In this document: piece by piece, positions 6,780-20,543 of the stretch
How positions within the stretch are numbered: the first letter of the stretch is position 1
Layout of the letters: each line of letters opens with the position of its first letter
Assembly (NCBI RefSeq): GCF_028898945.1
Contig: NZ_CP118607.1
Location: 2,094,001 to 2,158,000 of the forward strand
Direction: 5' to 3'
Length of the DNA stretch: 64,000 bases
From: Pseudomonas sp. PSKL.D1
Lineage (GTDB): Bacteria; Pseudomonadota; Gammaproteobacteria; Pseudomonadales; Pseudomonadaceae
Translations under genes and position numbers: made by a program
Notes under the pieces: model-generated
What the model saw: the letters and a program-made list of their open reading frames with translations, nothing else
What the model was told of the DNA's origin: nothing
Databases searched by the model: none

Positions 6780-8105
6780 TCAGAACAACGGCACCGAGTA
6801 ACTCACCGTCAACCGGTTCTGGTCCTGGTCCCACTCACTCGGCACCCCGCTGCGCAACATGCCGTTGCGCCAGCTAAACCCCAGCCCCTTGAGCGTACCG
6901 CTCTGCACCACATAGTCCAGGGCGATATCACGTTCCCATTCCTTCTCGTCACCACCTGACGTCATGCGAATGTGCGTGCCCTTCAGGTAGGTCACCGACG
7001 CAATCAACCCCGGCACCCCCAGCGCAGCGAAGTTGTAACCATACTGGCCAAAGGTGGTGCGCTCACCCGCGCGGGTGAAGCTGGTCACCAGGCGGTCGGT
7101 GAACAGGTAGATGCTCGACCCTGCCGCGCCTTCGCCGGTATTGCCCTGGTTCAACTGCACGAAGTTGCCGCTGTCGGATACCCGCTGGTGGCCGAGCAGC
7201 AGCGAATGGCCGCCTACGGCGTAGGTGAACATCGCGCTCCAGGTGTCGTTGTCGATCTTGCCGGGCGTATCGGCAAGGCCGCTCACCTGGTAGCCCGCCG
7301 CGCGCCCGTTGGCCGAGTCGTTGCGCCCGTCGGCATCGGTCTTGAAGTAGCGCAGGTCGGTGGTCAGCGACTGGTTGTCGGCCAGCGCCCAGGTGTGTAC
7401 CAGGCCGGCGAAGTGCTGGACGTAATAGTCCTCGAGTTGCGCGGCGTAATACTGCAGCTTGAGGGCCTGGGTGAGTTGATAGTCGGCGCCGGCAAAGAGA
7501 AATTCGTTGCTCTGGCGGGTGCCGCCGGCCACGGCAAGGCCAGAGCGGTTGGTCGACCCCCGGCCTGTGGTGTGTTCCAGGCGCCCGCCAGTCAACGTCA
7601 GGCCGTCGATTTCCCTGGAGGTGACCATGCCGCCCTCGAAGGTTTGCGGCAGCACGCGGCCGTCGTTGGCGACCAGAATCGGCAGTTTCGGTTGCAAGGT
7701 GCCGTAGCGCGCCTCGGTTTGCGAGAAACGCAGCTTGCCGGTCAGGCCCAAACGGCTCCATTCATCCACGGCGCTGCCGTCGCTGTCGTCGGGAATCATC
7801 GAGCTGCCGCGATGATTGCCAGCGCCGCCGTCCAGGCGCACACCGAGCATGCCGAGCGCATCCACGCCGAAACCGACGGTGCCGTCGGTGAAGCCCGATT
7901 TGTAGTCGAGCACGAAGCCTTGGGCCCATTCGGCGGTCTTGCTCTGGCCGGCAGCGCCGGCGCGGTCACGGAAATCGTTATTGAAGTAATAGTTGCGCAA
8001 GTTGAGGTTGGCTTTGCCGTCCTCGATGAAGGCGGCCTGGGCGGTGGGCAAGGCCAGGCTCGTGGCGGTCAGCAGGTACAGGTGTACAGGGGCTTTTTTT
8101 GTCAT
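6780..8105 (-). CDS. OprD-family outer-membrane porin
   Basis: A 441-residue substrate-specific porin. It has a Sec signal (cleavage likely after LALPTAQA), an N-terminal FIEDGKANLNLRNYYFNND strand typical of OprD/OpdK channels, the KSGFTDGTVGFGVDALGMLGVRLDG segment, many amphipathic strands, and a C-terminal aromatic (YSVPLF) used for BAM insertion. Such channels usually pass carboxylates or amino acids. It is the last gene of a minus-strand group (thiolase, ligase, two PPC proteins), 67 nt after the last of them, so it probably admits the substrate of that pathway. A 15-bp motif shared with the SDR gene at 19758 lies at 8148-8162. Confidence 0.9.
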   Translation of the reverse strand: MTKKAPVHLYLLTATSLALPTAQAAFIEDGKANLNLRNYYFNNDFRDRAGAAGQSKTAEWAQGFVLDYKSGFTDGTVGFGVDALGMLGVRLDGGAGNHRGSSMIPDDSDGSAVDEWSRLGLTGKLRFSQTEARYGTLQPKLPILVANDGRVLPQTFEGGMVTSREIDGLTLTGGRLEHTTGRGSTNRSGLAVAGGTRQSNEFLFAGADYQLTQALKLQYYAAQLEDYYVQHFAGLVHTWALADNQSLTTDLRYFKTDADGRNDSANGRAAGYQVSGLADTPGKIDNDTWSAMFTYAVGGHSLLLGHQRVSDSGNFVQLNQGNTGEGAAGSSIYLFTDRLVTSFTRAGERTTFGQYGYNFAALGVPGLIASVTYLKGTHIRMTSGGDEKEWERDIALDYVVQSGTLKGLGFSWRNGMLRSGVPSEWDQDQNRLTVSYSVPLF

Positions 8106-8147
8106 TGTTGTTTCCTGAGGGCAAAAGGGCGCCCGAAACCACCGGGC

Positions 8148-8162
8148 GCAAAGGGCGTGGTG
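8148..8162 (-). promoter_or_regulatory. 15-bp motif shared with the SDR at 19758
   Basis: On the minus strand it reads CACCACGCCCTTTGC, ending 43 nt upstream of the porin ATG. A 14/15 identical copy lies 48 nt upstream of the SDR gene at 19758 in the same orientation. It resembles a sigma-54 site with a good -12 but lacks the -24 GG; its function is unknown. Confidence 0.3.
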
Positions 8163-8172
8163 CAGCGTTGAA

Positions 8173-8571
8173 TCAATCGGGCAGCCATTCCTGCAAGGTG
8201 AGTTCGACGGTGATGAACGACAGGTTGCGGCCGCGTTGCAGGCGGCCGGCGAAGATGTTGCCGGCGGCGTCGGCCAGCACCGCCTGCAGGCGGCTTTGCC
8301 CCGCGACGATTTCGCCGCTCAGGCTGAGGATTTCGATGCCCGGGCCGGGTACATGGATATCCTGCATGCCCTGGCGGCCCAGGTAGTGCAGCTCGCCGTC
8401 GATCAGGCTGCCAAGGCCGCCGCGCACCACGGCGCAAGCAATGCCGTGGCTGGCGCACAGGGCTTCGGCGCTGTCGATGATGTCTTCGTTCGGCTTGAGC
8501 CGCGCGACCACCAGGCGGCCCAGTTGGCCGCTTTGCACGAGGGATTCGACGTTGTCTTGCGGCAAAGTCAT
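8173..8571 (-). CDS. PPC/DUF296-domain protein, histidine site degenerate
   Basis: A 132-residue protein consisting of one PPC (DUF296) domain: a GRLVVARLKPNEDIIDSAEAL start, the ACAVVRGGLGSLIDGELHYLG turn, and the IEILSLSGEIV strand are all family-like. The canonical histidines (HxH strand and GGHL) are replaced by LQAVL and AGRL, so the metal/ligand site seen in many prokaryotic PPC proteins looks lost. The ATG at 8571 is used because it overlaps the upstream PPC gene (stop at 8568-8570). Its neighbour retains the histidines, which suggests a hetero-oligomer. No biochemical function can be assigned. Confidence 0.75.
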   Translation of the reverse strand: MTLPQDNVESLVQSGQLGRLVVARLKPNEDIIDSAEALCASHGIACAVVRGGLGSLIDGELHYLGRQGMQDIHVPGPGIEILSLSGEIVAGQSRLQAVLADAAGNIFAGRLQRGRNLSFITVELTLQEWLPD

Positions 8572-9119
8572 GAGGCCTCCTTGAGCACGGGATGCAAGAG
8601 GTTGAACTGGGTTTCCGGGTCTGGCTGCACCTGGTAGGCCACCTGGTCGAACAGGCACAGGCGCAGCACCAGCGGCTCGTTGCCGACGATCAGCCGGTCG
8701 AGTACCAGGTGGCCGCCGTGTTGATGGCCATCGCGGTCAATGAAGCCGGCATGGCAATGCAGCAGCGGTGTGCCGCTGGCACTTTGGCCAACGGTAATGG
8801 CACCGCTGATGAAAGTGATATAGCCATCCAGCACCACCGGCTGGCCGTAGTCGTAGGGGCGCTGCTCATTCTCGGTGGTGACCATGCGGTGGTAACTCAA
8901 ATGCGCCGCGCCGCCACACAGGATGCGCCCGACGGCGCTTTGATAGCGGCAGCCTTGCAACACTGCCAATAAGCCTTCGGCCACATTGCAGGCCAGCGGC
9001 AGCTCCACGCGCAGCTCCTGGCTGTGTGCCACCTCGCAGTCAAGCAGGCGCGGCTGCTGCGGTTGGCCGCCGTGGATGAAGTGGCGCACGCCGCCACGGG
9101 TTTCGAAGTGCGGTGTCAT
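8568..9119 (-). CDS. PPC/DUF296-like protein with intact histidine motifs
   Basis: A 183-residue protein. The C-terminal half carries LLHCHAGFIDRDGHQHGGHL, matching the HxH ... GGHL pattern of PPC/DUF296 domains, preceded by a FISGAITVG strand equivalent to the LSGnI strand. The N-terminal half (CNVAEGLLAVLQGCRYQSAVGRILCGGAAHLSYHR) fits the domain's first lobe. The ATG at 9119 overlaps the stop of the acyl-CoA ligase (ATGA), and the gene's own stop overlaps the next PPC gene. PPC proteins form trimers; the three-histidine cluster suggests a metal or ligand site, but the role in this pathway is unknown. Confidence 0.72.
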   Translation of the reverse strand: MTPHFETRGGVRHFIHGGQPQQPRLLDCEVAHSQELRVELPLACNVAEGLLAVLQGCRYQSAVGRILCGGAAHLSYHRMVTTENEQRPYDYGQPVVLDGYITFISGAITVGQSASGTPLLHCHAGFIDRDGHQHGGHLVLDRLIVGNEPLVLRLCLFDQVAYQVQPDPETQFNLLHPVLKEAS

Positions 9120-10696
9120 ACCGGCTGCTCCTGGCCCGCTTCGAGCAGCGTGCGGATGTGTTTCTTGACGATTTTGCCGTAACCGGACTTGGGCATTTCG
9201 TGCCAGCGCACAAAGCGTTTGGGCCACTTGTAGCGGGCCAGGCGCGGCTCCAGATGGGCCAGCAGTTGCTCGTCGCTGACCTCGCCCGTGGTCACGATCA
9301 CCGCACAGCCGCACTCGCCCCACTTTTCGTCGGGCATGCCCAGCACCGCCACCTCGTTGACCGCCGGGTGGGTGAGCAGGGCTTCCTCTATCTCCCGTGG
9401 GTACACGTTGGAGCCGCCCGAGATGTACATGTCCGAAGCGCGGCCAGTGATGAACAGGTAACCCTCGTCGTCCACATGGCCGAGGTCGCCGGTGTGGAAC
9501 CAGCCATGCCGGAAGCACGCGGCGTTGGCGTCGGGGTTGTTGTAGTAACCGGCGAACACCGCCGGGCCGCGCACGCAGATTTCACCGTCGCTGCCGGTGG
9601 GCAGTTCGGTGCCGTGCTCATCGAGGATGGCCACCTGCATGCCGGTGCGCGGGTAGCCGCACGAACCCACCTTGGCCTGGGGGCTGTCTTCGGCGTCGTG
9701 GCAGTCGGCTGGCAGCACGGTGATGTTGCCGGTGACTTCGCCCAGGCCGTAATACTGCACCAGCACCTTGCCCAATGTGCGCAGGGCATGGCACTGGTCG
9801 GCGCGGTACATAGGGGCGCCGGCGTAGATGACGTAGCGCAGGCTGCTGTGGTCGTAGCGCGCCACGGCCGGGTCTTCGGTAAGCATCTTGACGATGGTCG
9901 GCACGGTGAACAGGTTGTCGATGCGGTGCGTTTGCACCAGGCGCCAGGCTTCGTCGCAGTCCAGGCGGTCACCGGCAGGCAGCACGCAGGCGGCGCCCCG
10001 GGCGACGTTGACCAGGGCATGGATACCGGCGCCGTGGGACAGCGGCGCCAGCACCAGCGAGCGCGACTGGTGGCTGAGGCCGGGCATCAGGTCGGCGAGG
10101 TGGTTGTTGACCACGAAGGCCATTTGCCCGTGGGTGAGCACGCCGGCCTTGGGGTGGCCTGTGGTGCCGGAGGTGTAGAAGAACCACAGCGGGTCGTGGT
10201 AACGGACCTCGGCCGGGCGGAACGCAGCCTGCAACGGTGCGCCTTCGTCGAGCAGGGCGTCATAGCCCAGCTCACCGCTGCGTGGCGTGCCGATGGCGAT
10301 GACCGTTTGCAACGCAGGCGATGCCTCGCGCACGGCGTCCACGTAATGAGCGAAGCCCTCGTCGTAAAGCATCGCCACCGCACCGCTGGAGCTGCCCAGG
10401 TAAGCGGCTTCCGGTGGGGTGATGCGCACGTTGGTCGGCACCCACACCATGCCCAGGCGAAACGCCACCCAGGCACTTTCGAACAGCTGCAGGTTGTTGC
10501 GTGAATGCACCAGCAGCCGGTCACCCTTGGTCAAACCCCGGGCGCGCAAAGCCGCAGCCACGCTGTCTACCCGCTCAAGCAACTGGCGCCACGGCACACA
10601 CTGCTCACCGCGAATGAAACCCGGCGCGTCAGGCAGGCGGCGGGCCACCTGGGCCAGCAACTCGCCCAGGTTCATCACGTTGTCGATACCCGTCAT
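9116..10696 (-). CDS. AMP-dependent acyl-CoA synthetase/ligase
   Basis: ANL-superfamily enzyme that adenylates a carboxylic acid and transfers it to CoA. In 526 residues: P-loop YTSGTTGHPKAG (about 174-185), YYGLGEVTG (A5), GWFHTGDLGHVDDEGYLFITGR (A7/A8 hinge), ISGGSNVYPREIEEAL, and the C-terminal catalytic lysine in KSGYGKIVKK. It most resembles class I acyl/aryl-CoA ligases; the substrate cannot be read from sequence. The start codon overlaps the thiolase stop (ATGA) and the stop overlaps the next gene, so the operon is tightly coupled. Confidence 0.9.
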   Translation of the reverse strand: MTGIDNVMNLGELLAQVARRLPDAPGFIRGEQCVPWRQLLERVDSVAAALRARGLTKGDRLLVHSRNNLQLFESAWVAFRLGMVWVPTNVRITPPEAAYLGSSSGAVAMLYDEGFAHYVDAVREASPALQTVIAIGTPRSGELGYDALLDEGAPLQAAFRPAEVRYHDPLWFFYTSGTTGHPKAGVLTHGQMAFVVNNHLADLMPGLSHQSRSLVLAPLSHGAGIHALVNVARGAACVLPAGDRLDCDEAWRLVQTHRIDNLFTVPTIVKMLTEDPAVARYDHSSLRYVIYAGAPMYRADQCHALRTLGKVLVQYYGLGEVTGNITVLPADCHDAEDSPQAKVGSCGYPRTGMQVAILDEHGTELPTGSDGEICVRGPAVFAGYYNNPDANAACFRHGWFHTGDLGHVDDEGYLFITGRASDMYISGGSNVYPREIEEALLTHPAVNEVAVLGMPDEKWGECGCAVIVTTGEVSDEQLLAHLEPRLARYKWPKRFVRWHEMPKSGYGKIVKKHIRTLLEAGQEQPV

Positions 10697-11862
10697 AGCA
10701 CGGCCTCCAGGATGCTCACGTAGTTGGTGACAGCCGCGCCGCCCATGTTGAATACCCCGGCACGGTCGGCGCGTGGCAGCTGCATGTCGCCTGCCTGGCC
10801 GCTCAGTTGCATCGCTGCCATCACATGCATCGAAACCCCGGTGGCACCAATCGGGTGGCCTTTGGACTTCAGCCCGCCGGACGGGTTGACCGGCAGCCTG
10901 CCGTCCTTGTGGCTGATGCCTTCGGCGATTACCCGCGCGCCCTGGCCGCGTTCGGCCAGGCCCATGGCTTCGTATTCGAGCAGTTCGGCAATGGTGAAGC
11001 AGTCATGGGTTTCGACCAGCGACAGGTCATCAAGCGTCAGCCGGGCCTGCGCCAGCGCCTGTTGCCAGGCCCGCGCCGCGCCTTCGAACACCGTGGGGTC
11101 GCGGCGCGACAGGGGCAGGTAGTCGTTCACCTGCACCGCCGCACGAAAACGCACGGCTGGGCCGCTACGGTCGTGCTGGTCGGCGCGGCTGATCACCAGC
11201 GCAGCGGCGCCATCGCTGATCAGCGAACAGTCACTGCGCTTGAGCGGGCCGGCGACAAAGGGGTTTTTCTCCGAAGGCGTGCGGCAGAAGTCGTAGCCGA
11301 CGTCCCGGCGCATGTGCGCGTAGGGGTTAAGGGCGCCATTGGCGTGGTTCTTGGCGGCGATCATCGCCAGGGCGTCGGACTGGTCGCCGTAGCGGCCGAA
11401 GTAGGCGCTGGCGATATTGCCGAACACCCCGGCAAAGCCGCTCTCGATGTCGGCTTCTTCGCGGGCGTAGCAGCATTTGAGCAGGATTTTGCCTACCTCG
11501 GCGGTGGGCAGGCCGTTCATTTTCTCGAAGCCCACCACCAGCGCATGCCGCGATTGGCCGCTGAGCACGGCGTGCAGCGCCGAATGGATGGCCGCAGAGC
11601 CTGTTGAACAGGCGTTTTCAACACGCACGGCCGGGGTAAAACGCAGCGCAGGCAGGTGGTTGGCCAACAGCGCGCTGGGGAAGTCCTGGTACAGGAAGCC
11701 TGCGTTGAAATGGCCGACATGCACGCTGTCGATCTGCTGTGGGTCCAGCCGGGCATGGGCCAGTGCGCCAATGGCGGCGTCGGCCATCATGTGTTCGGGG
11801 TCGATGTCGGGAAACTTGCCGAAGGGGGCGTGGTACCAGCCGCTGATGAGGGGTGAATCCAT
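10693..11862 (-). CDS. SCP-x-type thiolase
   Basis: A 389-residue thiolase-fold enzyme. The acylated cysteine lies in VENACSTGSAA (about residue 85), the HDCFT motif replaces the usual thiolase NEAFA, and GGLKSKGHPIGATG gives the GHP signature; these together mark the SCP-x / lipid-transfer thiolase branch. It would cleave a 3-ketoacyl-CoA. No DUF35 (OB-fold) partner gene is nearby, unlike many members. Start chosen at 11862, preceded by AGGA; a longer in-frame start at 11904 lies inside the promoter and is unlikely. It is first gene of the minus-strand operon, behind a sigma-54 promoter. Confidence 0.88.
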   Translation of the reverse strand: MDSPLISGWYHAPFGKFPDIDPEHMMADAAIGALAHARLDPQQIDSVHVGHFNAGFLYQDFPSALLANHLPALRFTPAVRVENACSTGSAAIHSALHAVLSGQSRHALVVGFEKMNGLPTAEVGKILLKCCYAREEADIESGFAGVFGNIASAYFGRYGDQSDALAMIAAKNHANGALNPYAHMRRDVGYDFCRTPSEKNPFVAGPLKRSDCSLISDGAAALVISRADQHDRSGPAVRFRAAVQVNDYLPLSRRDPTVFEGAARAWQQALAQARLTLDDLSLVETHDCFTIAELLEYEAMGLAERGQGARVIAEGISHKDGRLPVNPSGGLKSKGHPIGATGVSMHVMAAMQLSGQAGDMQLPRADRAGVFNMGGAAVTNYVSILEAVL

Positions 11863-11900
11863 GAGGTGAATCCTCGCTCGATGGGTTTGCGAGGTCGATG

Positions 11901-11915
11901 GCAAGAACGGTGCCA
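11901..11915 (-). promoter_or_regulatory. Sigma-54 promoter for the thiolase operon
   Basis: On the minus strand, TGGCACC-GTTC-TTGC: -24 GG and -12 GC with the exact 4-bp gap of the RpoN consensus (TGGCACG-N4-TTGCW). It lies about 40 nt upstream of the thiolase ATG at 11862. Confidence 0.8.
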
Positions 11916-11989
11916 GCCACTTGGCGAGGCCTCTGCGCCGTGGCTTTGCGAGTATGGGCGGGGTGTAGGCCGGTAGCAGGCGCGGTGCT

Positions 11990-12037
11990 ACAGGTGTCGC
12001 CCTGAGCGGCCAGGCGACAGTTCAGGGAGACACCTGT
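11990..12037. promoter_or_regulatory. Long inverted repeat, probable activator binding site
   Basis: Arms 11990-12005 (acaggtgtcgccctga) and 12022-12037 (tcagggagacacctgt) match at 15 of 16 positions around a 16-bp centre. It lies 75 bp from the -24 of the thiolase promoter and 138 bp from the -24 of the dctP promoter, the usual range for an enhancer-type UAS. Confidence 0.6.
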
Positions 12038-12174
12038 TACACCTGCCGTATCACCGCAGCCAGGCATTCACAATTTGATACATCGGCGCTGCGCACGCTT
12101 CTGCCCATGTAAATCAGTGGGTTAGGTGGCTTTAGCTGCGCTTGCGGGCATCAGGTCGGGCAGCCTGGGGCCGG

Positions 12175-12190
12175 TGGCACTCCAATTGCT
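12175..12190 (+). promoter_or_regulatory. Sigma-54 promoter for the TRAP operon
   Basis: TGGCACT-CCAA-TTGCT: -24 GG and -12 GC with the canonical spacing, 64 nt upstream of the dctP ATG. Confidence 0.85.
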
Positions 12191-12254
12191 ATGTCATGTT
12201 CACCATCGCCGTATCCCACTCGATCAATAAGAACAAATAGGTCAGGAGAGCTTC

Positions 12255-13286
12255 ATGAGCGATTTCACCCGCCGTTCCTTCATCAAAACGGCCTGCATGG
12301 CATCTGCCGCGGTCGCCGCCGCAGGCCTTGGTTTGTACAGCCCCGGTACTCGCGCTGCCGACTTCAAACTCAAGTTCGCCAACAACCTGCCCATCAGCCA
12401 CCCGATGAACGTGCGGGCCCGGGCCATGGCCAAGGCCATCAAGGAAGAAACCAACGGCGCGCTGACCGTGCAGGTGTTCCCCAGCAGCCAGCTGGGCAGC
12501 GATACCGACACCCTGGCCCAAGTGCGTTCCGGCGCGGTGGACCTGTTTTCGCTGTCGCCGGTGATCCTCGGCACGATGGTACCCTCGGTGCAGATCAGCG
12601 CGGTAGGCTTTGCCTTCAAGGACTACCAGCAGGTGTGGAGCGCCATGGACGGCGCGCTGGGTGAACACGTGCGGGGCGAAATCGCCAAGACCGGGACGCT
12701 GTTCGCCTTCGACCGCATGTGGGACAACGGCTTCCGTGTGACCACCACCAGCACCCGGCCGGTGACCAGCCCCGATGACCTGCGCGGCATGAAACTGCGC
12801 GTACCGCCCAGCCCGATCATCATGTCGATCTTCCGCGCCCTGGAGGCGGCGCCCACCAGCATCAACTTCGCCGAAGTGTATTCGGCGCTGCAGACGCGCA
12901 TCGTCGAAGGCCAGGAAAACCCCATGACCCTGGTGAGCTCGGCCAAGCTGTACGAGGTGCAAAAGTACTGTTCGCTGACCAACCATGTGTGGGACGGCTT
13001 CTGGATGCTGGGCAACAGCGCTTCGTTTGCCCGCCTGCCAGCGGACATGCAGGCCATTTTGCGCAAGCACATCAACGAGGCGGTAATGGGCCAGCGCGAA
13101 GACCTGGCCAAGCTTGAAGGCAGCACCCGCGACACCTTGAAGGGGCAGGGGCTTGAGCTGGTGGAAGCGCCCGCCGACGCCTTCCGCGACATGCTGCGCA
13201 GCGCCAACTACTACGCCGACTGGCACGGCAAGTTCGGCGACGAAGCGTGGGCCATCCTTGAGCAGTTCTCCGGGAAGCTGGCGTGA
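12255..13286 (+). CDS. dctP: TRAP transporter substrate-binding protein (DctP family)
   Basis: A 343-residue periplasmic solute-binding protein for a carboxylate-type ligand. The N-terminus is a Tat-like signal (twin arginine in TRRSFIKTACMASAAVAAAG), and the mature part starts with DFKLKFANNLPISHPMN. Family features include the conserved arginine strand (KLRVPPSPIIMSIFRALEAAP) and EVYSALQTRIVEGQENP. A strong RBS (aggagag) precedes the ATG. The stop overlaps the DctQM start. Tat export suggests folding before export; ligand not predictable, but the context points to an organic acid used by the adjacent ligase/thiolase. Confidence 0.93.
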   Translation: MSDFTRRSFIKTACMASAAVAAAGLGLYSPGTRAADFKLKFANNLPISHPMNVRARAMAKAIKEETNGALTVQVFPSSQLGSDTDTLAQVRSGAVDLFSLSPVILGTMVPSVQISAVGFAFKDYQQVWSAMDGALGEHVRGEIAKTGTLFAFDRMWDNGFRVTTTSTRPVTSPDDLRGMKLRVPPSPIIMSIFRALEAAPTSINFAEVYSALQTRIVEGQENPMTLVSSAKLYEVQKYCSLTNHVWDGFWMLGNSASFARLPADMQAILRKHINEAVMGQREDLAKLEGSTRDTLKGQGLELVEAPADAFRDMLRSANYYADWHGKFGDEAWAILEQFSGKLA

Positions 13287-15166
13287 TGCGCGCCCCCGCG
13301 CTACCGGCCTCCACCGTTTCGCAGCGCCTGCCGGCCCGGGTGCTGATCTGCCTCAACACCTGGGCCATGCGCCTGGTCGGGGTGATTGCCGTCGCCTTGA
13401 TGGTGATTGAAACCTTTGTGCTGCTGGCGGGGGTGATTGCCCGCTACGTGCTGCACAGCCCGCTGATCTGGTCTGATGAGCTGGCCTCGTCGCTGTTCAT
13501 CTGGCTGGCGATGTTTGGCGCGGTGCTGGCACTGGACCGTGGCGAGCACATGCGCATGTCGGCGCTGGTGAACAAACTGCCCGCCACCTGGCGCGGGTTC
13601 AGCGAAACCTTGTCTGCATTGATCGTCTGCCTGTTCGTGGCCATGATCATTTCGCCCGCCATGCAGCATTCCCACGAACAAATGTGGATTACCACGCCCG
13701 CACTGGGCATCCCCGACGGTGTACGAGCGGCGGCCTTGCCGGTAGGCGCGGTGCTGATGCTGCTGGCGGCCGTGGCGCGCATGGCGCGCTATTCGACGGT
13801 GCGCCAGTTCATGGCCGGGTTGGCGGTGGTTGGTGCGGTGGCGGCTGCGCTGTGGCTGGCGCAGCCGCTGCTGGCGGCCATGGGCAACTACAACCTGGTG
13901 GTGTTCTTCCTGGTGTTGCTGGGCGCCTGTGTGTTTGGCGGCATCCCGATTGCCTTTGCCTTCGGCACCGCGACCATGGCGTACCTGGCCCTGGCCACCC
14001 ATGCGCCGCTGTCTATCGTGGTCGGGCGCATGGATGAAGGCATGTCGCACATGGTGCTGCTGGCGGTGCCGCTGTTCGTGCTGCTGGGCGTGGTGCTGCA
14101 GCTGTCGGGCATGGCGCGCACGCTGATCGACTTCATGGCCTCGCTGCTGGGCCATGTGCGCGGCGGGTTGCAGTATGTGCTGCTGGGGGCGATGTTCCTG
14201 GTGTCGGGCATCTCCGGCTCCAAGGTCGCCGACATGGCGGCCGTGGCCCCTGCGCTGTTCCCCGAAATGAAGCGCCGGGGCTCCAAGCCCGAAGAACTGG
14301 CCGCGCTGCTGTCGGCCACCGGTGCGATGACCGAAACCATCCCGCCAAGCCTGGTGCTGATCACCATCGGCGCGGTGTGCAGCGTGTCGATTACCGCGTT
14401 GTTCATCGGCGGGTTGATGCCGGCGGTAGTGGCCACCCTGGCCATCGCGGTGGTGTGCTGGTGGCGCTCACGCAAGGATGAAGGGCCGGCCATCGAGCGT
14501 GCACCGTTGTCGCGGGTGGCCAAGACCTTCCTGTTCGCCTTGCCGGCGCTGGCCTTGCCGCTGCTGATTCGCGTGGCGGTGCTGGAAGGGGCGGCCACGG
14601 CCACCGAGGTGTCGACCATCGGCGTTGCCTACGTGGTGTTGGTGGGGCTGGTGATGCACCTGTTCATGCGCCATATCGAATGGCGCCGGCTGTACCCGAT
14701 GCTGCTGGAAGCGGCCGCGCTTTCGGGGGCCATTCTGCTGATTATCGGTATGGCGTCGGCCATGGCCTGGGCGCTGACCCAGTCGGGCTTCTCGCAGTCG
14801 CTGGTGGAGCTGATCGAGGACATCCCCGGTGGCGTGATCGGGTTCATGGTGGTGACCATCCTCACGTTCCTGATCCTGGGCAGCGTGCTGGAGGGTATCC
14901 CGGCCATTGTGCTGTTCGGCCCACTGATGTTCCCGCTGGCCGAGTTGCTGGGCATTCACCCGGTGCATTACGCCATGGTGGTGATCCTGGCCATGGGCGT
15001 GGGCCTGTTCGCACCGCCGCTGGGGGTGGGCTTCTACGCCGCCTGCGCCATCAGCAAGACTTCATCCGACCACGTTATCCGCCGCGTCTGGGGTTACCTC
15101 GGCGCGTTGCTGGTGGCGTTGGTGATCGTTGCCTGTTTCCCGTGGATTTCCATCGGTTTCCTTTAA
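13283..15166 (+). CDS. dctQM: TRAP transporter fused small/large permease (DctQM)
   Basis: A 627-residue membrane protein joining the four-helix DctQ subunit (about residues 20-170, including the SDELASSLFIWLAMFGAVLA segment) to the DctM channel (from about 190; FLVLLGACVFGGIPIAFAFG, GISGSKVADMAAVAP, GMASAMAWALTQSGFS, GVGLFAPPLGVGFYAAC). It drives Na+-coupled uptake with DctP. Start is GTG 13283 or ATG 13286, both overlapping the dctP stop. Fusion of Q and M is a known arrangement in this family. Confidence 0.93.
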   Translation: MMRAPALPASTVSQRLPARVLICLNTWAMRLVGVIAVALMVIETFVLLAGVIARYVLHSPLIWSDELASSLFIWLAMFGAVLALDRGEHMRMSALVNKLPATWRGFSETLSALIVCLFVAMIISPAMQHSHEQMWITTPALGIPDGVRAAALPVGAVLMLLAAVARMARYSTVRQFMAGLAVVGAVAAALWLAQPLLAAMGNYNLVVFFLVLLGACVFGGIPIAFAFGTATMAYLALATHAPLSIVVGRMDEGMSHMVLLAVPLFVLLGVVLQLSGMARTLIDFMASLLGHVRGGLQYVLLGAMFLVSGISGSKVADMAAVAPALFPEMKRRGSKPEELAALLSATGAMTETIPPSLVLITIGAVCSVSITALFIGGLMPAVVATLAIAVVCWWRSRKDEGPAIERAPLSRVAKTFLFALPALALPLLIRVAVLEGAATATEVSTIGVAYVVLVGLVMHLFMRHIEWRRLYPMLLEAAALSGAILLIIGMASAMAWALTQSGFSQSLVELIEDIPGGVIGFMVVTILTFLILGSVLEGIPAIVLFGPLMFPLAELLGIHPVHYAMVVILAMGVGLFAPPLGVGFYAACAISKTSSDHVIRRVWGYLGALLVALVIVACFPWISIGFL

Positions 15167-15178
15167 GAGAGCCCTGAC

Positions 15179-15970
15179 ATGAGCCAAGCTGCGAAAACGA
15201 CTTTGCCTGTATCCGCCCATGGACGTGTGGCGCTGGTGACTGGTGCCGCGATGGGTATCGGCGCGGCCATCGCCGAACGCCTGGGGCACGACGGCCACAC
15301 GGTGGTGGTGGCCGATATCAACCTGAGCGCCGCCCAAGAGATGGTTGCCGGCCTGCAGGCCCAGGGCATCGATGCCCTGGCACTGGCCATCGACATTGGT
15401 GATGCAGCCTCGATCAGCGCGCTGTTCGCCACCCTGCGAGAGCGTTGTGGGCGCTGTGATGTGCTGGTGAACAACGCGGGCATTGCCCGCACTCAACCCT
15501 TCCTGGACACCGAGCTGGAGGGCTGGCAGCGGCTGATGAACGTCAACCTCACCGGCACCCTGCTGTGCAGCCAGCAGGCGGCGCAGCTGATGCGCGAGCA
15601 GGGGTGGGGGCGAATCATCAACGTGGCGTCGATCAGCGGCATGCGGGCCAGCATGGGGCGCACGGCGTATGGCACGTCGAAGGCGGCAGTGATCGGCCTG
15701 ACCCGGCAGATGGCCATTGAGCTGGCCGAGCATGGCATCACTGTAAATGGCATTGCGCCGGGGCCGGTGGACACGCCATTAACGCGCACGCTGCATTCGG
15801 CGGCAACGCGTGAATCGTATGCCCGCGCCGTGCCGCTGCGGCGCTATGGCACGCCGGCGGAGATGGCTGGAGCGGTGGCGTTTCTGGCGTCGGAGGATGC
15901 GTCGTACATCAGCGGGCATGTGATCCCGGTGGATGGCGGGTTCATGGCATCGGGCATCCTCGAGATCTAG
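15179..15970 (+). CDS. Short-chain dehydrogenase/reductase
   Basis: Classical SDR of 263 residues: cofactor motif TGAAMGIG (about 22-29), NNAG (about 100), catalytic serine in INVASISG and YGTSKAA tyrosine/lysine pair (about 165-169). The substrate is unknown; FabG-like 3-hydroxy/3-keto acid or alcohol oxidation is typical. It follows dctQM by 12 nt in the same sigma-54 operon. The region after its stop is interrupted 22 bp later by an insertion sequence. Confidence 0.9.
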   Translation: MSQAAKTTLPVSAHGRVALVTGAAMGIGAAIAERLGHDGHTVVVADINLSAAQEMVAGLQAQGIDALALAIDIGDAASISALFATLRERCGRCDVLVNNAGIARTQPFLDTELEGWQRLMNVNLTGTLLCSQQAAQLMREQGWGRIINVASISGMRASMGRTAYGTSKAAVIGLTRQMAIELAEHGITVNGIAPGPVDTPLTRTLHSAATRESYARAVPLRRYGTPAEMAGAVAFLASEDASYISGHVIPVDGGFMASGILEI

Positions 15971-15992
15971 CACAACGCGATCGGTGTAATCG

Positions 15993-16004
15993 ATGGACTC
16001 GCCC
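15993..16004 (+). repeat. Left subterminal inverted repeat of the IS
   Basis: atggactcgccc, reverse complement of 17414-17425. Confidence 0.85.
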
Positions 16005-16067
16005 CCGCCGAGGCATCACAGTGCCACGGTGGCGTTCGAAGAAGCCAACGGCAGCGAGGGCGAGACC

Positions 16068-17171
16068 ATGAAAAAGCATAGTTCGAAGCACGATTCCCTG
16101 TCTTCCACTGATGTGGAGCTTTGCACAACCATCTGCGTAGACCTGGCCAAACAGGTCTTCCAGTTAGCAGGCGAGGATGCTACCGGTCGGGTGATCTACG
16201 AAGATCGCATCAAATCCCGACAGGCTTTCCATGATTTCCTACTCAAGGTGCCAGTGACGGTAACTGTCTTGATGGAGTGTGGTCCGGGTGCGCAAGCCTG
16301 GGCCAGGTTGCTGCAGGCCAAGGGTAATCCGGTTCGCATTCTGCCTGCGCAACGCGTGGCCGAGCACCGCAGTGGCGCCAAGAACGACCGTAACGACGCT
16401 CATGCCATTTTGCGCGCTGGTCGCGACAGCAGCATCGCCTCGATACCGGTCAAGAGCACCACAGCACTGACTATTCAGGCGCTGCACCGTATCCGGCGCG
16501 GCAACATCAAGCGACATACAGCGCTGGGTAATCAGATGCGTGGCTTGCTGCTTGAGCATGGTGTATCCATGCCCCAAGGTGATACCGCGATCAGTACACA
16601 TGTACCGCGAGCTCTTGAGGATGCCTCCTTGCCCCTGCCTGATTTGTTGCGCGAGTTGCTCGATGAACTGCTAGCTGACTGGCTCTTTCTGAGTGAGCGC
16701 ATTGCGACGCTAAGTGCGCGGCTCGAAGCGACAGCCCAAGAGGATAAGGTCGCACAACGGTTGATCACCATTCGTGGTGTCGGCCCCATCATCGCCACGG
16801 CGATCGTGGCGAAAGAGACAGAACCTGCACGCTTCGCCAGTGGCCGGATGTTTTCTGCTTTCTTCGGTGTCGTGCCCGACCAGCACAGCAGCGGAAACAA
16901 AATCAGGCTGGGCAGAATGAGCAAGCGAGGTGACGGCTACATACGCAGCTTGATGATTCAAGGCGCGCATGCTGTCTTGAGTCAGCTAAAGCCTGATTCC
17001 GATCAGCCAGATGATCGCCGCCTCTTGCGCTGGCTATCCCGCCTTGGGCGCAAGGAGGCGGCGATCAGACTGGCTAATCGAAATCTGCGCATTATTTGGT
17101 CACTGCTGCAAAGTGATCAGGTTTATCAACGCAAACCGAAAGGTCATGAGGAGGCTGCCATGAGCAGCTGA
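16068..17171 (+). CDS. IS110-family DEDD transposase/recombinase
   Basis: A 367-residue protein with the N-terminal RuvC-like DEDD domain (D25 in CVDLAKQ, E70 in LMECGPG, D107 and D110 in KNDRNDA) and the C-terminal Transposase_20 domain (LITIRGVGPIIATAIVAK; FFGVVPDQHSSGNKIRLG with the conserved serine pair; SKRGDGYIRSLMIQGA). IS110 enzymes act with a bridge RNA from the element's non-coding end. Start at 16068; an upstream in-frame ATG at 15993 overlaps the terminal inverted repeat and is unlikely. The gene looks intact and is less GC-rich than its neighbours. Confidence 0.93.
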   Translation: MKKHSSKHDSLSSTDVELCTTICVDLAKQVFQLAGEDATGRVIYEDRIKSRQAFHDFLLKVPVTVTVLMECGPGAQAWARLLQAKGNPVRILPAQRVAEHRSGAKNDRNDAHAILRAGRDSSIASIPVKSTTALTIQALHRIRRGNIKRHTALGNQMRGLLLEHGVSMPQGDTAISTHVPRALEDASLPLPDLLRELLDELLADWLFLSERIATLSARLEATAQEDKVAQRLITIRGVGPIIATAIVAKETEPARFASGRMFSAFFGVVPDQHSSGNKIRLGRMSKRGDGYIRSLMIQGAHAVLSQLKPDSDQPDDRRLLRWLSRLGRKEAAIRLANRNLRIIWSLLQSDQVYQRKPKGHEEAAMSS

Positions 17172-17413
17172 TCAACCGAGCAATGCCACCGGGGCGCTGC
17201 GCGCCCCAACCCCTGCTAGTGAACATTGCCCCTTGGTAAGACCGTCGCAGAGAAATGCCTCCGCTCCTACAGGCCCGGCAACATTATGGCCTCAATGTAA
17301 ACGGCAAACTGCGAGCTCACCACGATGTTGGCCAGAAGCGAAAAGCTTTCTCGAATAGGCCTGATACATAGATGCAACCGGGTTCCTATGTTCAAAAAGC
17401 AGCTAGACAGTGT
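17172..17413 (+). ncRNA. IS 3' non-coding region, candidate bridge RNA / regulatory sRNA
   Basis: This 242-bp gene-free stretch lies between the transposase stop and the right inverted repeat. In the IS1111 group the bridge RNA comes from this side. It opens with a 7-bp GC stem (ggggcgc tgc gcgcccc, 17191-17207). ISPpu9 in P. putida is reported to carry small RNAs here. Transcription and boundaries cannot be seen from sequence. Confidence 0.45.
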
Positions 17414-17425
17414 GGGCGAGTCCAT
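17414..17425 (-). repeat. Right subterminal inverted repeat of the IS
   Basis: gggcgagtccat, pairing with 15993-16004. Confidence 0.85.
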
Positions 17426-17428
17426 ACA

Positions 17429-17543
17429 TAGGAGCGGCTTCAGCCGCGATTGGCCTGCGAAGCAGCCCCAGCAATTTCTGCGGTTGTGCTGACACCTCAG
17501 GGCCGCTGCGCGGCCCTATCGCGGCTGAAGCCGCTCCTACACC
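17429..17543. repeat. Paired REP palindromes (BIME-like)
   Basis: Two inverted copies, taggagcggcttcagccgcg (17429-17448) and tcgcggctgaagccgctcct (17519-17538), flank a GC hairpin (gggccgctgcgcggccc). The first copy is the one the IS abuts. The second reaches into the 3' end of the LysR gene. Confidence 0.8.
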
Positions 17544-18481
17544 GACCGTGTGGGCTGAGGGTCTTCCTCCAGGCGCCGGGCCTCATCCTCCCGCGTCGCC
17601 TGCTCCCCGGCCTGCAGCGCCGTTTCCACGAACGTGGCAATGCACGGGTTGTGGTTGTCGGCCTTCCACACCGCCACCACCTCGATCACCGGCGCCTGGC
17701 GCAACGGCCGGAAGCTGGTGCTGGCCAGGCGCATGTTGCGCATCGAGCGCGGCACGATGGCCACCCCCAGGCCTTCGCCCACCAGGTTGACGATGGTCTG
17801 CTGCATGTTGATCTCAAGGCCGATGTTGGGCGTTACGCCGTGTTGCAGGCAGTAGTTGCAGATCATGTCGTGCAGGGCAGGGGCAATGCGCCGGGGGACG
17901 ATGATGAAGGTTTCGCCCGCCAGCTCGCGTGGCTCCACCACGGCCTGATTGGCCAGCCGATGGCCGGGTGGTAGCACCAGCGTCATTTCCTCGCGGTAGA
18001 GGGTAACCGTTTCCAGCCCCGTGCAGTCCTGTGGGCGATACATGATCGCCACGTCCTTGTTGCCGCTGCTGATGTCCTGGGCCAGGTCCAGTGGCAGGGT
18101 TTCCGTCAGCTTGAGGTTCACTTGCGGGTACAGCGCGGCGTAGCGCCGGGTGATGGCCGGGGTGATGCTGTAGGCCGTCGACATCATGAACCCCACCGAC
18201 AACTCGCCGGCCGCACCCCGCGCCGCCGCCAGCGCATTGCGCTTGGCCTGCTCGAAGGCGGCGAACACCGTGCCGGTGTCCAGGTAGAAGCGTTGGCCGG
18301 CCTCGGTCAGCTCCACCCGCCGCCGTGAGCGGTCGAACAGTTTGACCCCCAATTCCTCTTCCAACAGTGCGATCTGCCGTGACAGCGGCGGCTGGGAAAT
18401 ATGCAGCCGCTCGGCCGCGCGGCCAAAGTGCAGGGTTTCGGCCAGGGTACGAAAGTACTGTAGGTGACGTAGTTCGATCAT
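17537..18481 (-). CDS. LysR-family transcriptional regulator
   Basis: A 314-residue LTTR. The N-terminal winged HTH (MIELRHLQYFRTLAETLHFG, then RAAERLHISQPPLSRQIALL) is of the CatR/BenM-like branch; the effector domain (from about residue 90) includes the usual GFMMSTAYSITPAI and LPPGHRL strands. Start at 18481 gives the standard length; the frame continues 129 nt upstream without a family-like extension. It is divergent from the sigma-54 activator, with a 159-bp gap between them. It may control the adjacent cluster or the activator gene; the last codons fall in a REP, so the C-terminus may be strain-specific. Confidence 0.9.
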   Translation of the reverse strand: MIELRHLQYFRTLAETLHFGRAAERLHISQPPLSRQIALLEEELGVKLFDRSRRRVELTEAGQRFYLDTGTVFAAFEQAKRNALAAARGAAGELSVGFMMSTAYSITPAITRRYAALYPQVNLKLTETLPLDLAQDISSGNKDVAIMYRPQDCTGLETVTLYREEMTLVLPPGHRLANQAVVEPRELAGETFIIVPRRIAPALHDMICNYCLQHGVTPNIGLEINMQQTIVNLVGEGLGVAIVPRSMRNMRLASTSFRPLRQAPVIEVVAVWKADNHNPCIATFVETALQAGEQATREDEARRLEEDPQPTRSV

Positions 18482-18640
18482 GATGCTCACAAAGGTATCA
18501 GTCGATGCTGGATTATGTATTGGAAAATATAACTGCGCCTCCCTAATGTGAAGGTGCAACGCCCCTCCGGCCCCGGCCGCGCCACAAGCGCTGCCCGCCG
18601 GCATAGTCACAAGCTATAGAACAAGAAAAAGGTGACGCTG

Positions 18641-19672
18641 ATGACCGCTTTGACCCGCCCTGGCCACCCGTGCCTGCCCGCCGTACCCGAATGCGATATT
18701 GCCCACGACAGCGACCCGCTGGTGCGCCAGGCCTTTCGCCGCGCGCTGCGCCTGATGGAGCGTGGCATTGCCGTGCTGATTCGCGGCGAAACCGGCACCG
18801 GCAAGGAAATTCTTGCCCGCGCCCTGCATGCCCACAGCCAGCGCCAGGCCGCTCAATTGGTGGCGCTCAACTGTGCCTCGATCCCCGAAACCCTGATTGA
18901 AAGCGAATTGTTCGGCTACACCCGTGGTGCATTTTCCGGTGCGCTACCGGGGGGCAAGAAGGGCAAAGTGCAGCAGGCCGACGGTGGCACGCTGTTTCTG
19001 GACGAAATCGGCGACATGCCGTACGAGCAGCAAACCCGCCTGCTGCGGGTGATCGCCGAGCGGGAGGTAACGCCGCTGGGGGCAGAGCGCAGCGTGCCGG
19101 TGAACTTCGCCCTGGTCTGCGCCACCCACCAAGACCTGGCCGCCCGGGTGGCCGACGGCAGCTTCCGTGAAGACCTGTTCTACCGCATCGCCACCGGCGT
19201 GGTGCATTTGCCACCCCTGCGCGAGCGCAATGACCGTGGCGAACTGCTGTGCAACATGGTTGCCTTTGAACTGCCAGGCTGCGACCCGCGCCAGGTACTG
19301 AGTGAGGTGTGGGCACTGTTGCTGGCGCACCCTTGGCCGGGCAACCTGCGCCAGATGCGCGCGGTGGTGCGCTATGCCTGCGCGGTGATGGAAGGGGCGC
19401 GGATCCAGCGCAGTGACCTGCCGCTGGACTTCCTCGGCCAGTGCCAGGCGCCACGCCCGTTGCCCGCCAACATCACGCCGATCCGCCGCCCGGTGCCGCA
19501 AGGCGATGAGCGTGCCGACGTGCTCGACACCCTGCAGGCCTGCCGCTGGAACATGTCTGCCGCTGCCCGCGAACTCGGCATCTGCCGGCCTTCCCTGTAC
19601 CGGGTGATGCGCCGGCTGGAAATACCGCCGCTCAAGGAACAGCTGGCAATGGGCAGCTACGGCACCGCCTGA
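18641..19672 (+). CDS. Sigma-54-dependent activator lacking a sensory domain
   Basis: A 343-residue bacterial enhancer-binding protein. After only about 25 residues comes the AAA+ domain: Walker A GETGTGKE (about 49-56), the loop GAFSGA (about 96-101, T replaced by S in the GAFTGA motif that contacts sigma-54), Walker B GGTLFLDEIG (about 115-124), and an FYRIATGVVHLPPLRER sensor region. A C-terminal Fis-type HTH (NMSAAARELGICRPSLYRVMRR) binds DNA. No receiver, GAF or PAS domain is encoded, so it resembles PspF-type activators whose control comes from a partner or from expression level. It is the obvious regulator of the two sigma-54 promoters at 11901-12190. Start ATG 18641 has aagg upstream. 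Confidence 0.88.
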   Translation: MTALTRPGHPCLPAVPECDIAHDSDPLVRQAFRRALRLMERGIAVLIRGETGTGKEILARALHAHSQRQAAQLVALNCASIPETLIESELFGYTRGAFSGALPGGKKGKVQQADGGTLFLDEIGDMPYEQQTRLLRVIAEREVTPLGAERSVPVNFALVCATHQDLAARVADGSFREDLFYRIATGVVHLPPLRERNDRGELLCNMVAFELPGCDPRQVLSEVWALLLAHPWPGNLRQMRAVVRYACAVMEGARIQRSDLPLDFLGQCQAPRPLPANITPIRRPVPQGDERADVLDTLQACRWNMSAAARELGICRPSLYRVMRRLEIPPLKEQLAMGSYGTA

Positions 19673-19695
19673 CTCCGTTTTCGTTCGCACATTCG

Positions 19696-19710
19696 CATCA
19701 CGCCCTTTGC
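19696..19710 (+). promoter_or_regulatory. 15-bp motif shared with the porin gene
   Basis: CATCACGCCCTTTGC, 14/15 identical to the minus-strand site at 8148-8162 and similarly placed (48 nt before the ATG). Function unknown. Confidence 0.3.
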
Positions 19711-19757
19711 ATCGCAGAGGGCGCGCCTGGCTACGGCCTTCTGAAGGGATTACCACC

Positions 19758-20543
19758 ATGAGCAACACGGCTGCTGTGCACACTGCAATCAATTTCACCC
19801 TGGCCGGGCGCACCGCGCTGGTGACCGGCGCCGCCCGTGGCATCGGCCACGCCATCGCGGCGGCCTTGGGCCATGCCGGTGCGCGCGTCGCCCTGGCGGA
19901 CCTGGACCCGGGCGCTGCCGAACTGGCCGCCGGGCAGCTGCGCGAGCAGGGCGTTGAAGCGATCGGCGTGGGCGTGGATGTGGCGGATGAGGGGCAGGTG
20001 CAGGCGATGATGGCGCAGGTCGAGGCGCAGTTGGGGGGCGTGGATATTCTGGTCAACAACGCCGGTATCGTGTCCACCGCGCCGCTGCTGGAGTTGACCA
20101 CGGCGGAATGGAACCGGGTGATGGCCATCGACCTCAACAGCGTGTTCTTCTGCGCCAAGGCCGTGCTGCCCGGCATGATGGCGCGCCGTGGCGGGCGCAT
20201 CATCAACATCGCCTCGGTGGCCGGCAAACGCGGGGGCGGGTTACTGGGCAACAGTTGCTACGCGGCCGCCAAGGGGGCGGTGATTGCGTTGACCAAAGGC
20301 TTGGCGCGTGAAGCGGGGCCTTATGACATCACCGTCAATGCCGTGTCGCCCGCGTTGACCGACACCGAAATGACCAGCGTGCTGGCGCCGCAGGCGAGGG
20401 CTCAGGTGCTGGCGCAGATGCCATTGGGGCGCGCCGGGACGCCACGGGATATCGCGGCGGCGGTGTGCTTTCTGGCGTCGGCCGAGGCGGGATTTGTAAC
20501 GGGGGAAATCATGGATGTGGACGGCGGGTTCATGCGCGATTGA
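19758..20543 (+). CDS. Short-chain dehydrogenase/reductase (second)
   Basis: Classical SDR of 261 residues: TGAARGIG cofactor loop (about 21-28), NNAG (about 97), INIASVAG serine and YAAAK pair. C-terminus EIMDVDGGFMRD is typical of FabG-like enzymes. The ATG at 19758 has a gaaggga RBS; the frame is open further upstream but without family similarity. It follows the sigma-54 activator by 85 nt. It is distinct from the SDR at 15179 and could act on a different enantiomer or step of the same pathway (inference). Confidence 0.9.
   Translation: MSNTAAVHTAINFTLAGRTALVTGAARGIGHAIAAALGHAGARVALADLDPGAAELAAGQLREQGVEAIGVGVDVADEGQVQAMMAQVEAQLGGVDILVNNAGIVSTAPLLELTTAEWNRVMAIDLNSVFFCAKAVLPGMMARRGGRIINIASVAGKRGGGLLGNSCYAAAKGAVIALTKGLAREAGPYDITVNAVSPALTDTEMTSVLAPQARAQVLAQMPLGRAGTPRDIAAAVCFLASAEAGFVTGEIMDVDGGFMRD

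Follow-up and report, generated by a model that had tools for sequence, protein, structure and literature searches.

A conserved sigma-54-controlled gene cluster of Pseudomonas that may serve the catabolism of a short ketol acid

The window analysed here is a stretch of 64,000 nucleotides (nt) from Pseudomonas sp. PSKL.D1 (NZ_CP118607.1, 2,094,001-2,158,000; all coordinates are positions within it), whose genome is one contig of 5.88 Mb. Between positions 6780 and 20543 lies a gene cluster which a preliminary description had read as a sigma-54 regulon for a carboxylate, comprising a porin, an acyl-CoA ligase, a thiolase, two PPC proteins, a tripartite ATP-independent periplasmic (TRAP) transporter, two short-chain dehydrogenases (SDRs) and its own activator. 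All genes named for this region were found in place, with family matches (Table 1). The two operons are divergent as described and their genes overlap by 4 nt at four junctions (thiolase/ligase, ligase/PPC1, PPC1/PPC2 and DctP/DctQM); PPC2 is followed by OprD after 67 nt and DctQM by SDR1 after 12 nt. The activator, the LysR gene and the second SDR are there as well; an IS110 transposase gene between SDR1 and the LysR gene had been overlooked. The thiolase carries the motifs CSTG, THDCF and GHPIG. THDCF and GHPIG are present in 17 of 17 relatives and VENACSTG in 14 of 17.

Table 1. Features of the cluster and its surroundings, with positions in the window.
Feature	Position	Strand	Match or remark
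OprD-family porin	6780..8105	-	PF03573, 467 bits; final gene of the thiolase operon, optional
PPC2, PCC/PPC-domain protein without metal-type histidines, partner of PPC1	8173..8571	-	PF03479, 60.9 bits, above cut-off
PPC1, PPC-fold protein, candidate metalloenzyme half	8568..9119	-	PF03479, 20.2 bits (cut-off 25); model and fold matches
AMP-dependent acyl-CoA ligase	9116..10696	-	NCBIfam PRK07470, 845.1 bits (cut-off 774)
SCP-x-type thiolase, start ATG 11862	10693..11862	-	NCBIfam PRK07516, 637.9 bits (cut-off 412), scored on a protein form with 2 extra residues
Sigma-54 box of the thiolase operon, TGGCAC-N5-TTGCC	11900..11915	-	one mismatch
Candidate upstream activating site, 22-nt inverted repeat (86%), arms ACAGGTGTC / GACACCTGT	11984..12043	.	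between both promoters
Sigma-54 box of the TRAP operon, TGGCAC-N5-TTGCT	12175..12190	+	exact
DctP, TRAP solute-binding protein, Tat-type leader	12255..13286	+	PF03480; TAT_signal_seq, 20.9 vs 16.7 bits
DctQM, fused TRAP permease	13283..15166	+	PF04290 and PF06808
SDR1, short-chain dehydrogenase, FabG/butanediol-dehydrogenase type	15179..15970	+	family matches
IS110-family insertion sequence	15985..17230 (transposase open reading frame 15993-17171; right end not fixed)	+	outside the regulon
LysR-type regulator	17537..18481	-	PF03466 and PF00126
Sigma-54 activator without sensor domain, AAA+ plus Fis-type helix-turn-helix, GAFSGA loop	18632..19672	+	PF00158, 206.6 bits, and PF02954
SDR2, second short-chain dehydrogenase, optional	19758..20543	+	PF13561

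The cluster is real, conserved and co-regulated and, as far as we searched, undescribed. A profile search of genome contigs based on the aligned PPC1 sequences yielded 18 related loci (L002-L019), 16 of them from Pseudomonas records, one from a gammaproteobacterial metagenome genome (L011) and one from Herbaspirillum (L019). The last, whose contig ends beside its thiolase and shows only thiolase-ligase-PPC1-PPC2, is excluded from all counts over 17. The linkage of the genes holds in relatives: nine core genes (thiolase, ligase, PPC1, PPC2, DctP, DctQM, SDR1, LysR and activator) occur together in 17/17 loci, with the TRAP operon opposite the thiolase operon in ten and located elsewhere in seven. 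OprD and SDR2, which had also been counted to the regulon, are not constant members. OprD adjoins PPC2 in 11/17 loci (L008 ends before that position), and SDR2 is present in 13/17; it is lacking in L012 and L017, truncated where locus L018 ends, and L011 is too short. The chromosomal site, serS-cysG, is shared with L002, L003, L007 and L013. Among relatives with a named source, the nearest PPC1 proteins are from Pseudomonas putida (92%). The cluster is nevertheless rare: PPC1 was found in 4 of 149 sampled Pseudomonas genomes, its own included.

Outward sigma-54 promoters had been proposed for both operons. Boxes were defined as TGGCAC-N5-TTGCW with at most one mismatch. The window alone contains 8 such boxes against 5.2 expected, and 12 of 100 shuffles reach 8. 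Because this count is not beyond chance, the case for sigma-54 rests on conservation: a box lies within 250 nt of the thiolase gene in 17/17 loci and of DctP in 17/17, all of which share descent, compared with 382 of 20,000 random 250-nt stretches (1.9%). No box was found upstream of the activator (0/17), LysR (0/17), SDR2-like genes (0/18, five of these being a different SDR matched at 35%) or OprD-like genes (0/12).

Co-regulation is further indicated by the candidate upstream activating site between the promoters. Its exact arm, ACAGGTGTC or GACACCTGT, occurs in 32 of 36 promoter regions, counted over the window and the 17 loci. Since facing operons share one region, these 36 reduce to 25 distinct regions, of which 22 have the arm (10 of 11 shared regions, plus those of the moved loci). 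At the seven moved loci it is found at DctP in all seven, at the thiolase in five and at both in five; in L017 the exact arm was not found. Across the 338 kb of the 17 loci, 31 occurrences are inside promoter regions and three outside. The two-arm form, searched on both strands (it is palindromic), is present at a single place in the whole genome, and a reversed control gave zero.

The activator has 346 residues, its AAA+ domain begins at residue 28, and GAFSGA is found in 17/17 relatives. The locus hence has what marks a sigma-54 regulon, that is conserved -24/-12 boxes at both operons and an AAA+ activator with a GAFTGA-type loop. The LysR gene is adjacent and divergent to the activator gene in 17/17 loci. 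Its best NCBIfam match is AlsR at 252.9 bits, below the cut-off of 430, and it is thus not assigned to the AlsR acetoin regulators. LysR is probably the inducer sensor. A regulatory cascade can be envisaged in which LysR turns on the gene of the sensorless activator, which then would bind the lone upstream site, a putative target, and fire both sigma-54 promoters.

What is the substrate? The nearest solved relative of DctP is 4OAN (RPB_2686 from Rhodopseudomonas palustris HaA2; E 1e-127 versus 3e-42 for the next), with 56% identity over 312-314 columns. The ligand density of this entry was reportedly modelled as (S)-2-acetolactate. R182, R161 and N222 of DctP, all matched in 4OAN, align with the corresponding positions of SiaP and are presumably carboxylate-binding residues. 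The structural model of DctP is poor (predicted local distance difference test score 51) and was used solely to read PDB titles. One conserved arginine is described as essential in a TRAP binding protein of the SiaP kind (PMC4646407), and a review names 2-acetolactate among the new ligands from the Enzyme Function Initiative (EFI) screen (PMC5812351).

In one family belonging to the phylum of the window, 67 of 149 genomes have a DctP match of E 1e-60 or better, and 20 of these loci were selected and read. An acyl-CoA ligase was found at 17 of them. Four have the type of the window, two of these (L083 and L087) with no PPC shown; the other 13 (L080-L082, L084-L086, L088-L093 and L096) have another ligase, 81-100% like that of L082, which scores as PRK08162. 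The 4OAN-like loci thus differ from the cluster, as the PPC pair is present in just 3 of the 20 and a thiolase in 2. Since an acyl-CoA ligase stands beside most DctP loci read, CoA activation of the imported acid is very probable. The cluster as a whole is likely to work on a beta-oxygenated carboxylate, activating it with CoA and then cleaving it. That the acid is an acetolactate-type short ketol acid is our working hypothesis, to which we give somewhat less than an even chance. Acetolactate and its isomer 4-hydroxy-3-oxopentanoate would both yield lactoyl-CoA and acetyl-CoA on thiolysis.

The substrate might instead be larger, such as an aryl-3-keto acid or one derived from lignin, entering via OprD and the TRAP system and being cut by ligase and thiolase. 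Aromatic acids were listed in the preliminary description, the PDB matches of the ligase include feruloyl-CoA synthetase, and R. palustris has a TRAP system, TarPQM, for lignin-derived aromatic acids (PMC5812351). However, the genes scanned at 6780-20543 include none for an aromatic oxygenase, a demethylase or ring cleavage. Together with the closeness of DctP to 4OAN, whose modelled ligand is reportedly a C5 acid, this makes a larger substrate improbable.

The two PPC proteins had been named on equal terms. PPC2 is one by Pfam, whereas PPC1 stays below the cut-off and is assigned by fold, although PF03479 is its only Pfam match at E up to 1. In an alignment of 26 sequences, H121-x-H123 and GGH137 of PPC1 are kept in all 26; PPC2 has no metal-type histidines. 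The fold of the PPC1 model matches the zinc-bearing domain of acetolactate decarboxylase (ALDC; 4BT2, 6J92, 5XNE), whose H-x-H...GGH motif may correspond to these histidines, and in addition PPC entries named putative DNA-binding proteins. The sequence model of the ALDC family, PF03306, did not match PPC1; that family is absent from its own genome and present in 1 of 95 genomes searched. A PPC1 profile run against PDB sequences matched PPC entries, with 2dt4 the best at E 1.9e-6, while no ALDC turned up, and a profile comparison aligned the motif with H-x-H/GGHL of one ALDC at a probability of only 1.7%, which is not significant. A spacing H121-x-H123-x10-H134, considered as the ALDC zinc spacing, was dropped: H137 (in GGHL) is kept in 26/26, H134 is not.

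ALDC has two such domains per working unit, and we assume the same for PPC1-PPC2. Unlike ALDC, the pair is encoded by separate genes or by a fusion with the histidine-bearing domain first, and is linked to an acyl-CoA ligase. It also differs from the PPC/PCC (DUF296) proteins 3HTN, 2DT4 and 2H6L in being paired, with one half lacking the histidines, and adjacent to a ligase. Within the phylum, PPC1 matches occur in 17 of 398 genomes at 18 places; a search for further relatives in the order of genome G308 found one among 244 genomes, namely G308 itself. PPC2 adjoins PPC1 at 18/18 places and a ligase of the same type at 17/18, the exception being a second copy in G167. Of the 17 distant places (L040-L056), a thiolase lies within the stretch examined at only 3 (L040-L042), and DctP with at least 50% identity at four (L042, L043, L044 and L047). 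By these counts the pair is tied more tightly to the ligase than to the thiolase. PPC1 and PPC2 form one open frame at 13/17 distant places (L043, L044, L046-L056) and are separate at four. In several of the fused-frame places the ligase is the only gene of the window's type found nearby.

These distributions bear on what the pair does. SCP-x operons usually contain a DUF35 OB-fold protein. No DUF35 domain was found among the genes scanned at 6780-20543 and the PPC genes lie inside the thiolase operon, so PPC1-PPC2 might be a thiolase partner that replaces the DUF35 protein and is itself not catalytic. This is unlikely, as the pair goes with the ligase far more regularly than with the thiolase at distant places and as H121, H123 and H137 are invariant, as expected for a metal site. 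A role as DNA-binding or regulatory proteins, in line with the titles of 3htn and 3hwu and the names of 2nmu and 2hx0 as putative DNA-binding proteins, is very improbable: these names are predictions, PPC1 overlaps the ligase gene and the two halves are mostly one open frame at distant places. A split two-domain metalloenzyme derived from the ALDC fold and acting on ketol-acyl-CoA esters is a possibility that we put forward with considerable doubt. Such an enzyme may, for instance, rearrange the ketol or epimerise it ahead of thiolysis.

Lactate as an end product would fit a further neighbour. Six of the 18 loci (L005, L006, L010, L015, L016 and L017) have a quinone-type D-lactate dehydrogenase (PRK11183) adjoining the cluster; as the loci share descent, these are not six independent events. 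The protein of L006 (12507-14231) scores 964 bits against a cut-off of 391 and the other five, for example that of L017 (11329-13050), resemble it at 80-95%. In four loci the gene comes after SDR1 and shares its strand, and in two it lies beside PPC2. The family occurs in just 10 of 149 Pseudomonas genomes and is missing from the genome studied here.

SCP-x thiolases favour 2-methyl-branched substrates, and the SDRs of the cluster resemble 3-hydroxybutyrate and acetoacetyl-CoA enzymes. Hence the acid could also be a 2-methyl-3-hydroxy or 2-methyl-3-oxo acid such as 2-methyl-3-hydroxybutyrate, which is similar in size to the ligand reportedly modelled in 4OAN. The SDRs would oxidise it and thiolysis would then give acetyl-CoA and propionyl-CoA, with PPC1-PPC2 as an accessory. 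We consider this rather unlikely, since it leaves both the neighbouring D-lactate dehydrogenase and the likeness to the ALDC fold unexplained.

Near the main cluster, five Pseudomonas loci (L004, L006, L010, L014 and L016) have a second, small one that contains a GntR regulator, a PhyH-type dioxygenase, another SDR and an AEC-like transporter (positions L004 1-3940; L117 194-2840; L118 15709-19000; L120 179-3684). The best NCBIfam match of the PhyH protein is ectoine hydroxylase, below cut-off; the transporter has no NCBIfam match and is so named by its appearance. Four of the five, not L014 within the stretch examined, have a second DctP (63-67% to that of the window), which lacks a permease gene of its own in the three loci read further. 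The second cluster would be compatible with a route that feeds into the same intermediate.

The reading of a dedicated carboxylate route is supported by these results, and the hydroxy- or keto-carboxylate first suggested may more precisely be a short ketol acid resembling acetolactate. Returning to this acid, we propose, at not quite even chances, that the cluster is an accessory one for breaking down a short beta-keto acid of the acetolactate type with an alpha-hydroxy (or alpha-methyl) group, or the reduced hydroxy-acid. OprD and the TRAP system would import the acid, SDR1 or SDR2 would oxidise the hydroxyl to the 3-ketone where it arrives reduced, and the ligase would form the CoA ester. 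The SCP-x thiolase would cleave the ester to acetyl-CoA and a 2-hydroxyacyl-CoA (lactoyl-CoA), from which lactate would lead to pyruvate. PPC1-PPC2, as a two-part enzyme of the ALDC fold, would act on the substrate or product of the ligase, either as a ketol isomerase/epimerase or in a step freeing the 2-hydroxy acid. The proposal draws on the gene set, its linkage, the conserved promoters and site, the fold similarity, the invariant histidines and the D-lactate dehydrogenase linkage in some relatives; every reaction, the substrate and the cascade we infer from these.

Our searches of open-licence PubMed Central brought up no published pathway that has the same gene set or a PPC pair, in agreement with the preliminary description, which had not recognised the combination. 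The nearest known logic appears to be the proposed deoxyribonate route of Klebsiella michiganensis (PMC6365646), which, in the excerpts of that paper, proceeds through acyl-CoA intermediates. By analogy, the two would share a CoA synthetase, a beta-hydroxyacyl-CoA dehydrogenase and a thiolase that releases acetyl-CoA and a 2-hydroxyacyl-CoA. The Klebsiella route has a CoA-transferase and a glycerate kinase, neither of which is among the genes scanned here at 6780-20543, whereas the present cluster has a TRAP system, sigma-54 control and a PPC pair, the last not named for the Klebsiella route in those excerpts. In the same literature nothing joined the DUF296/PPC domain with acyl-CoA and thiolase, with acyl-CoA and TRAP transporter, or with acetolactate, and no mention of 4OAN was found. 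Acetolactate, lactoyl-CoA and thiolase together gave unrelated work only, acetolactate uptake or catabolism or RPB2686 gave yeast work only, and many of the DUF296 matches listed concern plant AHL proteins, while one deals with DUF2961.

The insertion sequence is not part of the regulon: it has copies elsewhere in the genome and is absent at this position from the four same-site relatives compared (five records, as L013 and L058 are one genome). There are seven further full copies, about 100% identical, and another that is split in two, and because of these near-identical copies the element has probably been active recently. Between the element and the end of the LysR gene (about 17428-17545) there is an imperfect palindromic pair of the GGAGCGGCTTCAGCCGCGAT type, resembling Pseudomonas repetitive extragenic palindromic (REP) repeats.

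The locus offers a tidy two-tier switch, with a LysR regulator, a sensorless sigma-54 activator, two promoters and one two-arm target in the genome. If the proposal is right, it would show how cells consume ketol acids that escape from the metabolism of acetoin and branched-chain amino acids, and would to our knowledge be the first catabolic route dedicated to an acid of the acetolactate type, with acetyl-CoA and lactate as its end products. If PPC1-PPC2 is indeed an enzyme, this would be the first catalytic role known to us for a bacterial PPC/DUF296 protein, and would provide testable chemistry for a family of which several members are only putative DNA-binding or hypothetical proteins in the PDB.

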